DNA from: Lentilactobacillus otakiensis DSM 19908 = JCM 15040
GTDB taxonomy: Bacteria > Bacillota > Bacilli > Lactobacillales > Lactobacillaceae
Length of the DNA: 64,000 bases
Assembly: GCF_001434145.1 (NCBI RefSeq)
Contig: NZ_AZED01000014.1
Span: forward strand, 310,001 to 374,000
Direction of reading: 5' to 3'
The translations under genes and the position numbers were made by a program. Positions 10,396-26,728 of this stretch are shown piece by piece; positions within the stretch are counted from its first letter, which is position 1; each line of letters starts with the position of its first letter. The notes below the pieces were generated by a model. The model worked only from the letters and a program-made list of their open reading frames with translations. It searched no databases and was not told where the DNA came from.

Positions 10396-10815
10396 ATGAA
10401 AATTCGCAAGATGCGGCTCGAAGATTATCCAAACGCGTATCAACTCTGGCAACGGATACCTGGGATGAATTTAAGGGATCCGGATGACAGTTTTAAAGAA
10501 ATCAGCCGGTTGATCAGCTTTAATCCTGACTTTTGCTATGTCGTCGAAAATACTAATCAGCAAATAGTTGGCAGTATTCTTGGTGCAACGGATGGCCGGC
10601 GCGGTACAATTTATCATCTGGCCGTGGATCCTAAAGTACAACGGCAAGGTCTTGGCACTAAATTGGTTGATCTCGTCATTGATCAGTTAAAACAAGTTGG
10701 CATTCAAAAAGTATACGTTATGGTGATGCGTGATAATCAAGCTGGTGAACAATTTTGGCTGCGACAGAAGTTTGTAAAGCGCGACGACATCGTTCGTTTT
10801 AACAAAATTATTTAA
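10396..10815 (+). CDS. GNAT-family N-acetyltransferase
   Basis: This 139-residue protein has the GNAT fold. KIRKMRLEDYPNAYQLW opens the domain, YHLAVDPKVQRQGLGTKLV (about 76-94) gives the acetyl-CoA pyrophosphate-binding motif Q/R-x-x-G-x-G/A as RQGLGT, and AGEQFWLRQKFVKRD is motif B. The acceptor is unknown. No good ribosome binding site lies just before ATG 10396. The purine-rich GGAAGAAGG is 23 bases away, inside a possible 9-codon reading frame (10364-10393) that stops 2 bases before the start, so translation may depend on the upstream message. It is 34 bases after the Nudix gene and ends before a terminator shared with the convergent licD. Confidence 0.85.
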   Translation: MKIRKMRLEDYPNAYQLWQRIPGMNLRDPDDSFKEISRLISFNPDFCYVVENTNQQIVGSILGATDGRRGTIYHLAVDPKVQRQGLGTKLVDLVIDQLKQVGIQKVYVMVMRDNQAGEQFWLRQKFVKRDDIVRFNKII

Positions 10816-10873: not shown

Positions 10874-10901
10874 ACTTTACATAATATATATTATACGAAG
10901 T
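10874..10901. other. dif: dif-like XerC/XerD recombination site
   Basis: A 28-bp site has 11-6-11 architecture: left arm ACTTTACATAA (10874-10884), centre TATATA (10885-10890), right arm TTATACGAAGT (10891-10901). Read on the - strand, the left arm becomes TTATGTAAAGT, matching the conserved XerD-side arm of Bacillus dif. Compared from memory with B. subtilis dif, only about three positions differ. It lies where gene orientation switches and 1.2 kb from xerS. It would resolve chromosome dimers at cell division. Confidence 0.75.
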
Positions 10902-10915
10902 AGTGTAAAATCAAA

Positions 10916-10968
10916 AAAGAATCAGTTCTCAAAGCCAACACTCTCGGCAATGACAACTGATTCTTTTG
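10916..10968. terminator. Bidirectional terminator between GNAT gene and licD
   Basis: AAAGAATCAGTT (10916-10927) pairs perfectly with AACTGATTCTTT (10955-10966) across a 27-nt loop, with T-rich or A-rich flanks on both sides. Confidence 0.85.
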
Positions 10969-10988
10969 TGCATTAATTTGGTGAATAA

Positions 10989-11831
10989 TTAACTGACGGC
11001 TTCTTCCAGATCATTCCCAGATTCAACTTGAGTGTTCGTTTGATAACTATCCACCTTTACTTTTAAAACGTGACGCTGAATGCGTTTATCAAGCGGTGGT
11101 AATTTCATATAGTCGCCGTATAATCTCGTTAAGTATGCGTCATAATCTGCTAGCACCGGTACCTGTAAATTTTCAAATTTCATGGTTTTTACATGATGAA
11201 TTTCATCTGGTTTGATTAATTCTTTACCATATTGATATGGTGATGACATGTTAATTAATGATAAGTCTGGATGACCATTATATTGCGTCATGGTGCTCAA
11301 ACGAATGTCATACAGCTCACTTAAGTTATAATCTGCATATTTGGATTGACTGATGCTTTCTTGATAAAGATCCGGATAAAATCGTTTCCGAATTTCTGCC
11401 AGCAGATCCGTTAACTTTTCTTGCTGACGTTGTTGCTGAAGTTGTTTCTTGGGCATTCTGTCAAATGGGAATACGTCAATGAAGATGCCATTCTTAGCTT
11501 TTGTCAGTTCACGACCATGTTCTAAAATTTCTGTGCCATTGGCCATCACTTTGGCAAAATCATATTCATATTGTGGATCAAGGCGGTTTTCCTCAACGAA
11601 GTATCCCCGGTCTGACAGTTCCGCTGGTGCAAATTGCAGAAACTTTTCGAAGTCAGTTCGCGGTAGTCCAATGTCGATATCGTCATCCCATGGAATAAAT
11701 CCGTGGTGGCGGACAGCACCAATTGCTGAACCACCGGTTAGAAAGTATTCTAAATGATGCCGAGAATTGATTTCTGCGACGTTTGCCAGGATACCTAGCT
11801 GAATTTTGTGAATTAATTGTAAATCAAGCAT
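10989..11831 (-). CDS. LicD-family phosphotransferase
   Basis: LicD proteins transfer phosphorylcholine or related polar groups onto cell-surface glycans, using a nucleotidyltransferase-like fold. Residues about 30-60 hold the family signature: FLTGGSAIGAVRHHGFIPWDDDIDIGLP, here split by its G-G-S and D-D-D-I-D metal-binding core. FIDVFPFDRMP near residue 125 is also typical. It has 280 residues, no signal peptide and no membrane segment, so it should be cytosolic. GGAGGTC precedes the ATG. The gene lies alone between the dif-like site and an inverted repeat, divergent from xerS. No teichoic-acid or capsule genes are nearby, so its acceptor cannot be deduced. Confidence 0.88.
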   Translation of the reverse strand: MLDLQLIHKIQLGILANVAEINSRHHLEYFLTGGSAIGAVRHHGFIPWDDDIDIGLPRTDFEKFLQFAPAELSDRGYFVEENRLDPQYEYDFAKVMANGTEILEHGRELTKAKNGIFIDVFPFDRMPKKQLQQQRQQEKLTDLLAEIRKRFYPDLYQESISQSKYADYNLSELYDIRLSTMTQYNGHPDLSLINMSSPYQYGKELIKPDEIHHVKTMKFENLQVPVLADYDAYLTRLYGDYMKLPPLDKRIQRHVLKVKVDSYQTNTQVESGNDLEEAVS

Positions 11832-11948: not shown

Positions 11949-11957
11949 TGCTATACT
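11949..11957 (+). promoter_or_regulatory. Extended -10 promoter of xerS
   Basis: TGC-TATACT (11949-11957) forms an extended -10 element. No good -35 is seen. The inverted repeat at 11959-11988 begins just downstream, covering the expected transcription start. Confidence 0.5.
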
Positions 11958-11958
11958 T

Positions 11959-11988
11959 AACTTAATAAAATACAGATTTTATTAAGTT
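11959..11988. repeat. 30-bp perfect inverted repeat with 6-bp centre upstream of xerS
   Basis: AACTTAATAAAA (11959-11970) and TTTTATTAAGTT (11977-11988) are exact reverse complements around the centre TACAGA. The size and layout resemble a Xer/difSL-type site or an operator. It is not a terminator, as it lies between divergent genes. Confidence 0.75.
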
Positions 11989-12057
11989 ATAAGTCTAAAA
12001 GTAAATAAGCCCCACCAAAATACCGGTTTTTATCCAGGTTACTAAGGAGTTAAAAAA

Positions 12058-13155
12058 ATGAATTCTTCCCAATATATTCACCACAATGAACAGCTGGTGC
12101 AGAAATTGCCCGATTACATCAACGAATATTACTTAGACAAATCAACGGTCCCATTATCCCCTGCCACGCTATACCAATATTTGAACGAGTTTCATCGCTT
12201 CTTGAGTTGGGTGATTGCTGTTGGTATTGTCAAAGTCTCCCAAGTTAAAGACATCCCACTTTCGAGTCTTGAACATTTCAAAAAACAGGATATGGAGCTC
12301 TATAAGTCCTATCTGCTCAATCGCGGCAAACAAACTGCCAACAATCCCCAAGGATCGATTTCCCACCGAACTGTCAATCGTTCACTCAATGCACTCTCAG
12401 CCTTGTTCCGGTATCTGACTGAGGAAACTGAAACCGCAGATGGCGAACCTTATTTTTATCGAAATGTGATGAAAAAAATTTCATTGGTGTCTGACAGCGA
12501 AACCTACCAGACCCGCGCCAATAACATTAAAGACCAGTTGATGCTTGGTGATAGTGATATGAAATATGTCGAGTTTATCAAAAATGATTACCCAAAAGCG
12601 CTCACAAACAAACGAACTCTTGCGTTATATCGACGTGATCGCGAGCGCGATACTGCCATCAATGCTTTAATGTTGGGAACCGGGATTCGAGTGTCCGAAC
12701 TCACCAATGCCAACTTGAAGGACTTAAATATTAATAAAGCGACAATTACGGTCCGACGCAAAGGCGGTAAACGCGATTCGGTCCCGATTGCTGGTTGGGT
12801 CTTAACCTACTTAGCCGATTATTTGAAGATTCGTAAGCAGCGTTATTCGGCAAGTAAGGACACCCCTGCCCTCTTTTTGACGAAAGGGGCAACTGCTCCA
12901 AGACGCATTTCAACTGCCACTGTAGAGCTGCTAGTGGCCAAATACTCCCAGGCTTTCAACCATGTTCGGGTCACACCGCATAAACTGCGACATACTTTGG
13001 CTTCAAAGTTATATTTAGAAACCAATAATGAGCATTTGGTGGCGACTCAGTTAGGCCAAAGTTCAACCAATGCAACCGGTTTGTATACTCACATCATTGA
13101 CACCAAGCAACGGCAGGCCTTGAATGGATTGCATCAACAGGATAAATCAGAGTAA
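12058..13155 (+). CDS. xerS: Tyrosine recombinase XerS
   Basis: XerS is the single-protein Xer recombinase described in streptococci and lactococci, where it resolves chromosome dimers at difSL. The protein has 365 residues. The N-terminal SAM-like core-binding domain has YINEYYLDKSTVPLSPATLY and GEPYFYRNVMKKIS, both closely XerS-like. The catalytic domain has Arg in GTGIRVSEL (about 204), Lys in RRKGGKRD, HKLRH (about 308) and the nucleophile Tyr in LYTHI (about 342). The usual LGH histidine or tryptophan position reads LGQ. AAGGAG lies 9 bases before the ATG. It stands next to a 30-bp inverted repeat and 1.2 kb from a dif-like site, in the orientation-switch zone. A XerC is also encoded at 25.8 kb. 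Confidence 0.93.
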   Translation: MNSSQYIHHNEQLVQKLPDYINEYYLDKSTVPLSPATLYQYLNEFHRFLSWVIAVGIVKVSQVKDIPLSSLEHFKKQDMELYKSYLLNRGKQTANNPQGSISHRTVNRSLNALSALFRYLTEETETADGEPYFYRNVMKKISLVSDSETYQTRANNIKDQLMLGDSDMKYVEFIKNDYPKALTNKRTLALYRRDRERDTAINALMLGTGIRVSELTNANLKDLNINKATITVRRKGGKRDSVPIAGWVLTYLADYLKIRKQRYSASKDTPALFLTKGATAPRRISTATVELLVAKYSQAFNHVRVTPHKLRHTLASKLYLETNNEHLVATQLGQSSTNATGLYTHIIDTKQRQALNGLHQQDKSE

Positions 13156-22082: not shown

Positions 22083-22721
22083 ATGAATTTCAATATTGAA
22101 CAAATTATCATGATGTTAGCAGCAGCTTATTTATTAGGCTCAATTCCAAGTGGTGTCTGGATCGGCAAAATTTTCTTCCATGTTGATATTCGCCGCCATG
22201 GCTCCGGCAATATTGGGACAACCAATACCTACCGGGTTTTAGGACCGATTGCCGGCTCAATCGTGATGGCTTTGGATATTTCCAAAGGTGCAGTTGCGAC
22301 GTTGCTGCCGACATTCTTCCATGTGACAACAGTCAGCCCACTGGTCTTCGGTTTGATGGCCATTCTCGGTCACACCTTTTCGATTTTTGATAAATTTAAA
22401 GGTGGCAAGGCCGTTGCGACGAGCGCGGGGATGCTGCTGGCGTACAAACCGGCCTTTTTCTTTCTAGCTGCGGGTATTTGGATATTAGTGATCTTGCTTA
22501 CCAGCATGGTTAGTTTGGCCAGCATGATTGGTTTTACATTGACGACGATTGCCATTTTTTTCACTCACGATATTTTCCTGAGCGCGTTGGCGGTCCTGTT
22601 AACGATTTTTATTTTCTATCGTCATCGTGCCAACATCAGCCGAATTCGAAACGGGACGGAAAGTATGGTGCCATTTGGGCTCGGTAATATGCTTCGAAAA
22701 CGCCGCAGTTCCACTAAATAA
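22083..22721 (+). CDS. plsY: Glycerol-3-phosphate acyltransferase PlsY
   Basis: PlsY transfers the acyl group from acyl-phosphate, made by PlsX, to glycerol-3-phosphate, the first step of phospholipid synthesis. It is a 212-residue integral membrane protein with about five hydrophobic segments. The three family motifs are present: LLGSIPSGVWIGK (about 17), HGSGNIGTTNTYRVLG (about 39), and GHTFSIFDKFKGGKAVATSAG (about 99, in two parts GHTFSIF and KFKGGKAVATSAG). GAGAGG precedes the ATG. It is divergent from parE. It fits with plsX, acpP and fakA at 37-42 kb. Confidence 0.96.
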   Translation: MNFNIEQIIMMLAAAYLLGSIPSGVWIGKIFFHVDIRRHGSGNIGTTNTYRVLGPIAGSIVMALDISKGAVATLLPTFFHVTTVSPLVFGLMAILGHTFSIFDKFKGGKAVATSAGMLLAYKPAFFFLAAGIWILVILLTSMVSLASMIGFTLTTIAIFFTHDIFLSALAVLLTIFIFYRHRANISRIRNGTESMVPFGLGNMLRKRRSSTK

Positions 22722-25783: not shown

Positions 25784-26728
25784 TTATTTTGATTTTAATG
25801 AATCATTATTTCGAGGAAAATACTTCTTATAATCATCCATTAAATGTGATTTGGTAACATGTGTGTAAATTTGGGTTGTCGATAGGCTGCTATGGCCCAG
25901 CAACTCCTGGACAGATCGCATGTCAGCACCGTTATTGAGCATTTCTGTTGCGAAGGTGTGGCGTAACATGTGGGGATGAATCTTGGTGGTCAGACTGCTT
26001 TGTTTGACAATCTCGTCCATAATATATTCGATTCCTCGGGCTGTAATCGGCCTGCCATAATGATTAATGAACAGAAATCGGTGGCTTTGATGATACTTAG
26101 CCATGATTGGGCCTCTGGCACCACTCAAGTATGCTTCAATTGCATCTTGAGCATATTCCCCAAAGGGAACGTAACGCTGCTTGTTGCCCTTCCCAGTGAC
26201 TAAAATGGTCCGGTTATCCAAATCAATATCATTCAATTGAATACCGGCACATTCACTCACCCGAATACCGGTTGCGTAAAGTGTTTCTAAAACCGCCGAA
26301 TTTCTTAACCCAAGTTGAGGATTAGGATTTTGTTTGGCGCCTTCAAAAAGTGCCCGCATCTCATTTTGGTACAAAAATCTTGGCAGCCGACGATTATTTG
26401 TCTTCAGGTGAACGTACTCGAATGGATTATGAGCGATGACCTCACTTTTAACCAAAAATGCGTAAAATGATTTTAATGCAGAAATCTTTTGGGCAATCGA
26501 ATTTCTGGCGTACTTTTTTTCGTACAAGTTAGTCAGAAACGATTCAACGTCAAAGGCGTCCACTTTCGTCAGTTCTTTCTGGTCACTAGGCACCTCAGCT
26601 AAAAATACGACGAACTCGGTGATTGCCTGCTGATATGCCTGGATCGTATCTGCAGAATAATTTCGATCACTTCGTAGATACTTCAAAAACCATTGAATAT
26701 TTTTTTGATCTCCATTTAATTCCGTCAT
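25784..26728 (-). CDS. xerC: Tyrosine recombinase XerC (CodV)
   Basis: This 314-residue site-specific recombinase acts with XerD at dif to resolve chromosome dimers. The N-terminal core-binding domain spans about 8-100. The catalytic domain has Arg in [12 protein letters not shown] (about 158), Lys in [12 protein letters not shown] (about 182), [14 protein letters not shown] (about 253), His in LLGHSSL (about 279) and Tyr in QIYTHV (about 289). All six positions are intact, unlike XerS at 12 kb. It is followed at once by hslV and hslU. Its presence supports the dif-like site at 10874-10901 as a functional XerC/D target; xerD is not in this window. Confidence 0.95.

Follow-up and report, generated by a model that had tools for sequence, protein, structure and literature searches.

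The chromosome of Lentilactobacillus otakiensis DSM 19908 = JCM 15040 very probably carries a putative dimer-resolving XerS module side by side with the XerCD/dif system, and in several other lineages of the Lactobacillaceae such a module has very probably replaced XerCD/dif. Within the window that we analyzed, a stretch of 64,000 nucleotides of this genome, xerS and its own candidate 28-bp 11-6-11 site would form a second complete module, served by a single recombinase, ~1.1 kb from dif.

By analogy with established Xer/dif and XerS/difSL systems, one dif arm would be bound by XerC and the other by XerD, and their activation by FtsK at the septum would lead to strand exchange in the 6-bp dif centre, turning dimeric chromosomes into monomers. 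XerS would bind both arms of its own site, exchange strands within or close to the variable 6-bp centre and resolve dimers at the terminus independently of XerC or XerD. Both systems look intact in this genome and would either divide the work or be redundant. Elsewhere in the Lactobacillaceae, the XerS module would have taken over, with loss of XerD, dif and often XerC.

The dif site at the replication terminus

The 28-mer ACTTTACATAATATATATTATACGAAGT at positions 10874–10901 (+ strand) is an ordinary chromosomal dif site at the terminus. It consists of ACTTTACATAA, which we take to be the XerD-type arm, the centre TATATA, and TTATACGAAGT, presumably the XerC-type arm; the assignment follows from likeness to the dif sites of B. 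subtilis and E. coli. The original prediction had described a 28-bp 11-6-11 site resembling Bacillus dif, and 25 of the 28 bases are indeed identical to the reverse complement of B. subtilis dif as printed in PMC3025954 (3 differ; hand count). At up to 3 mismatches this was the sole match in the 64-kb window (0 in 100 shuffles) and in the whole assembly (2,346,188 bp in 21 contigs; 0 control hits), which leaves one best site in the genome. All named loci that contain close relatives of this xerS come from Lentilactobacillus, in keeping with the genus of the window. The same site, with 0–3 changes, occurs in 12 of these 13 loci; the thirteenth, L017, spans just 1.2 kb upstream of xerS.

Cumulative GC skew, calculated along an uninterrupted 254-kb stretch of contig C8, reaches its maximum at C8:320838, only 36 bp from dif (C8:320874), in support of the predicted terminus at dif. 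All sampled pieces of this 641-kb contig were skew-positive to the left of dif and skew-negative to its right. The skew evidence comprises the contiguous 254 kb, the sampled pieces of C8 and data from relatives, the chromosome being split into 21 contigs that are not ordered. In the near-complete relative G217, 20 skew samples show exactly two changes of sign, one near 1.2 Mb and one spanning the contig end (~2.4–2.5 Mb), and dif is located at the latter switch. A peak of GT (keto) skew 49 kb away was set aside, since gene strand governs the AT skew in the window's right part. Gene orientation changes as predicted, with genes at 4.1–10.8 kb on the + strand and almost all genes from 13.2 kb onward on the − strand (exceptions include 10989–11831 on −, xerS on + and 22083–22721 on +). 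Following the argument of Kono et al. 2011 (PMC3025954), a dif site indicates the terminus region, and the forks need not collide exactly there.

Directly past dif lies an imperfect inverted repeat (10912–10970; 25 bp, 84%, 9-nt gap) that probably serves the convergent genes on its two sides, 10396–10815 and 10989–11831, as a bidirectional terminator. The latter gene (− strand), located between dif and the proposed XerS site, is a bystander; its weak match to NF045866 (75 bits, cut-off 225) points to a LicD-like nucleotidyl/choline phosphotransferase type, a name that is a guess.

The original prediction placed XerC at 25.8 kb and XerS at 12 kb, and both genes are real. The protein encoded by xerC (25784–26728, − strand) scores 359 bits against TIGR02224 (cut-off 335) and is a partner of dif together with XerD. 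The gene for this second partner, xerD, lies outside the window, ~59 kb to its left on the same contig (C8:251236–252105; 394 bits, over the cut-off). XerS, which had been listed with XerC beside dif, seems to have an 11-6-11 site of its own at 11960–11987 that had been overlooked.

The xerS gene and its proposed site

The xerS gene (12058–13155, + strand) encodes a single tyrosine recombinase of 365 aa that matches the NF003462 equivalog with 447 bits (cut-off 267), has the conserved residues R211, K235, H308, R311 and Y343, and shares 49% identity with a streptococcal XerS. Comparison with relatives revealed strong purifying selection (dN ~0.10–0.13 with dS near saturation). Beginning 98 bp before its start codon, the proposed site (11960–11987, + strand) reads ACTTAATAAAA-TACAGA-TTTTATTAAGT, a perfect 28-bp inverted repeat at the centre of a longer one, likewise perfect (14-4-14; 11958–11989). 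The sequence has no second match in the genome when up to 3 mismatches are allowed, lies ~1.1 kb from both the GC-skew maximum and dif, and looks like the core site of a recombinase, with exact borders that depend on the AAAA-N6-TTTT core assumed in our search. A −10-like hexamer seen in the sequence, TATACT (11952–11957, + strand; extended form TGCTATACT), abuts the left arm and is a possible xerS promoter. Most Lentilactobacillus loci show the same layout, with TATAAT beside the arm.

Among 21 distinct sequences of the Lentilactobacillus/g9/g20 group, the arms hold 1.88 and 1.87 bits per position and the centre 0.54, with the conservation of the inner bases partly built in by the search, which required the AAAA-N6-TTTT core (up to 1 mismatch) and at least 8 of 11 symmetric positions. 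The centre occurs in 16 different versions in this group; outside it, the centre is less variable (1.35–2.0 bits) and in several clades reads CTATAA. Other clades have arms that are changed on both sides (TTTCATTAAAA, TATCATTAAAA, GTTCATTAAAA, TGTTGTTAAAA and ACTCAATAAAA, with matching right arms). In the streptococcal XerS loci that we fetched, difSL reads TTTCCGAAAAA-CTATAA-TTTTCTTGAAA, and its 14-bp core, AAAACTATAATTTT, is identical to that of many lactobacillar XerS sites.

XerS exceeded the cut-off in 138 of 399 Lactobacillaceae genomes, spread over 14 of 40 genera. The pattern TCATTAAAA-N6-TTTTAATGA (up to 1 mismatch) was present in 75 of these 138 genomes versus 10 of 261 XerS-negative ones (p = 2e-31, a value that ignores kinship). 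Most of the remaining XerS-positive genomes of genera g1, g9 and g20 carry a site of the ACTTAATAAAA type, and all six loci read from g25 carry one of the TGTTGTTAAAA type. No site was found in the fetched xerS loci of many g6, g20, g12 and g18 and some g37 members; in g20 and most g6 genomes, whole-genome patterns located it elsewhere. For g12 and g18, whose XerS is divergent, no convincing site was found near xerS, and g31 yielded a weak candidate only.

The arms of the site follow the XerS clade, and the centre varies. In the XerS tree (a quick FastTree reconstruction with long branches), the ACTTAATAAAA type lies within one supported clade. One genome of the window's own genus, G199, combines an XerS and arms that both belong to the g15/g4 clade, and with this pairing from another genus's clade, gene and site seem to travel together. 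In many genera, dif and the XerS site lie ~0.4–1.2 kb apart. The orientation of dif is the same as that of xerS in g1, g9, g25 and g3 and opposite in g15, g37, g4, g24 and g12, which indicates that the modules were juxtaposed, or inverted, more than once. Three genomes (G322, G369 and G392) contain 2–3 XerS-family genes each; the extra copies (e.g. L125, with 35% identity to the window's XerS) may be parts of mobile elements.

Joint loss of XerD and dif, and alternative roles considered for XerS and its site

XerD, scored over its cut-off, was surveyed in 131 of the 138 XerS-positive genomes. XerD and dif were both present in 97 and both absent in 31, a concordance of 128/131 (p = 1.5e-26, again ignoring kinship). 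Of the three discordant genomes, the draft G369 has XerD and no dif match, the draft G047 has dif and no XerD, and G130 lacks XerD and retains a degraded dif-like remnant adjoining xerS (locus L046). One half of this remnant is intact and the other degraded, the state to be expected of a dif in decay. Several of the genomes that matter most here are drafts.

Losses of XerD and dif fall in g22, g6, g31, g18, g9 and one g37 genome. The XerS-negative members of g6, g22 and g18 that we tested have two Xer proteins and dif, and in the tested contrasts within g6 and g22, XerCD/dif was lost only where XerS is present. XerC was likewise not found in the genomes without XerD and dif of g22, g31 and g18 and in the single one of g9. 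XerD-less g6 genomes (e.g. G045 and G344) keep one divergent XerC-like protein that reaches 174–309 bits against the XerD model and has an internal stop in G344. In G283, which lacks XerC, XerD and dif, the skew maximum lies 1 bp from the XerS site. The lactobacilli occur in three states, sometimes within one genus: XerCD/dif only, both systems, and XerS without XerD and dif. Replacement is less well supported for g18, where no XerS site was found, and for g31, with its weak candidate. A separate set of genomes, G155, G131, G178 (genus g9), G034 and G319, gave no XerC or XerD, no XerS at E 1e-80 and no dif match; G155 gave no PF00589 match at 1e-5 either, though it is rated 100% complete.

Many copies of the site lie 80–130 bp before xerS, which, together with the −10-like hexamer abutting the left arm in most Lentilactobacillus loci, this one included, would suit an operator through which XerS or another regulator controls the xerS promoter, with no recombination taking place. 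We consider it unlikely that 11960–11987 is only such an operator. Its 14-bp core is identical to that of difSL, and in L. hilgardii, g20 and several g15/g4 and g6 genomes the site lies 1.5–24 kb from xerS, yet 0.6–1.2 kb from dif or near the skew peak. In L. hilgardii (locus L014), a gene separates the site from xerS. In G382, the site has xerS at a distance of 24 kb, dif at ~840 bp and the skew maximum at 96 bp. In G204 the distance to xerS is 6.5 kb, with dif ~740 bp and the skew maximum, itself beside dif, 0.7 kb from the site. G260 and G386 have xerS 4–6 kb off and dif ~630–650 bp from the site; in G045, without dif and XerD, xerS is 17.7 kb away and the skew maximum 2.0 kb. Since the site keeps close to dif or to the skew peak where xerS is 4–24 kb distant, it is not simply a xerS operator or leader hairpin, and both were rejected as sole roles; autoregulation of xerS through the site may be an added role in Lentilactobacillus.

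It is less likely still that XerS serves a plasmid or mobile element and owes its place near the terminus to chance or to being a remnant, leaving dimer resolution to XerCD/dif alone. The intact XerC, XerD and dif of this genome and the extra XerS copies in G322, G369 and G392 are compatible with this idea, but xerS is under strong purifying selection, XerCD/dif was lost only where XerS is present in the g6 and g22 contrasts, and in many closed genomes (e.g. G124, G148, G192, G037 and G049) xerS lies at the terminus, near half of the record, judged from coordinates only.

A hairpin in the 5′ leader of the xerS mRNA, or a terminator, is a very improbable sole explanation of the palindrome. Use of the −10-like hexamer would place it within the transcript, and the arms change symmetrically from clade to clade, as those of an RNA stem do; however, the stem is rich in A+T, the distance to xerS often amounts to kilobases, and some changes are uncompensated, e.g. 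TTTTATCAAGT opposite ACTTAATAAAA in L013 and TTTTAAAGATA opposite TTTCATTAAAA in g15. Least probable of all is a single system in which XerS acts on classical dif, alone or mixed with XerC/XerD: the proximity of the two sites in many genera and the outer arm ends that start with ACTT at both sites in Lentilactobacillus would agree with it, whereas other genera have different bases at the outer arm ends (TTTC, TATC, TGTT), dif and XerD disappear together and XerS persists, and the orientation of dif relative to xerS varies among clades.

A XerS module with its own site remains the preferred reading. The further-reaching proposition, namely that two independent, functional dimer-resolution systems operate within ~1 kb at one terminus, and that XerS moves between lactobacilli as a gene-plus-site module, settles beside dif and repeatedly supplants XerCD/dif, is in our estimation evenly balanced between true and false. 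Genomes in the three states make it possible to trace, step by step, how a nearly universal recombination system is replaced.

Comparison with known Xer systems

The dif site of the window is no different in itself from that of the B. subtilis XerCD/dif system (CodV/RipX and dif), with which it shares the 28-bp 11-6-11 site (25/28 identical), the single copy, the position at the skew maximum and the encoded XerC and XerD. It is unusual only for the second Xer module ~1.1 kb away.

For this second module, the closest counterpart considered here is XerS/difSL of streptococci and lactococci (Le Bourgeois et al. 2007, cited via the parts of PMC5357621 drawn on here). XerS-family recombinases have ~356 aa, and the known difSL is 31 bp long and asymmetric, with an extra base in the right half. 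The window likewise encodes a single XerS (365 aa) over the NF003462 cut-off, with a site beside the gene and at the terminus. In contrast to the 31-bp asymmetric difSL, this site is a symmetric 28-bp 11-6-11 repeat that keeps the AAAA-N6-TTTT core. The CTATAA centre of difSL is absent from the window's site and present in other genera only, and lactobacillar arms are clade-specific with a variable centre. Absence of XerC, XerD and dif, as in the XerS/difSL system, was not observed here: all are present in the window's genome and in 96 other tested genomes, whereas XerD and dif are absent from 31 other XerS-positive genomes. The parts of PMC5357621 and PMC2731167 used here describe XerS for streptococci and lactococci only; our survey suggests that its acquisition is not confined to these groups.

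The XerH/difH system of epsilon-proteobacteria, as far as the consulted part of PMC2731167 describes it, also pairs a single recombinase with an adjacent dif-like site of conserved inverted repeats and a variable central hexanucleotide. XerH is reported there to be phylogenetically unrelated to XerS.

A precedent for coexistence is L. helveticus DPC 4571, in which Kono et al. 2011 (PMC3025954) noted XerC, XerD and XerS, with xerS near the skew shift-point, and called the combination intriguing and possibly an evolutionary intermediate. Neither dif nor a XerS site was found in that genome by these authors. The proposed XerS sites that we located in most of the XerS-positive lactobacilli examined make the coexistence noted by Kono et al. 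directly testable. The three recombinases coexist in the genome of the window as in L. helveticus DPC 4571, and of these two genomes only the former has both sites located.
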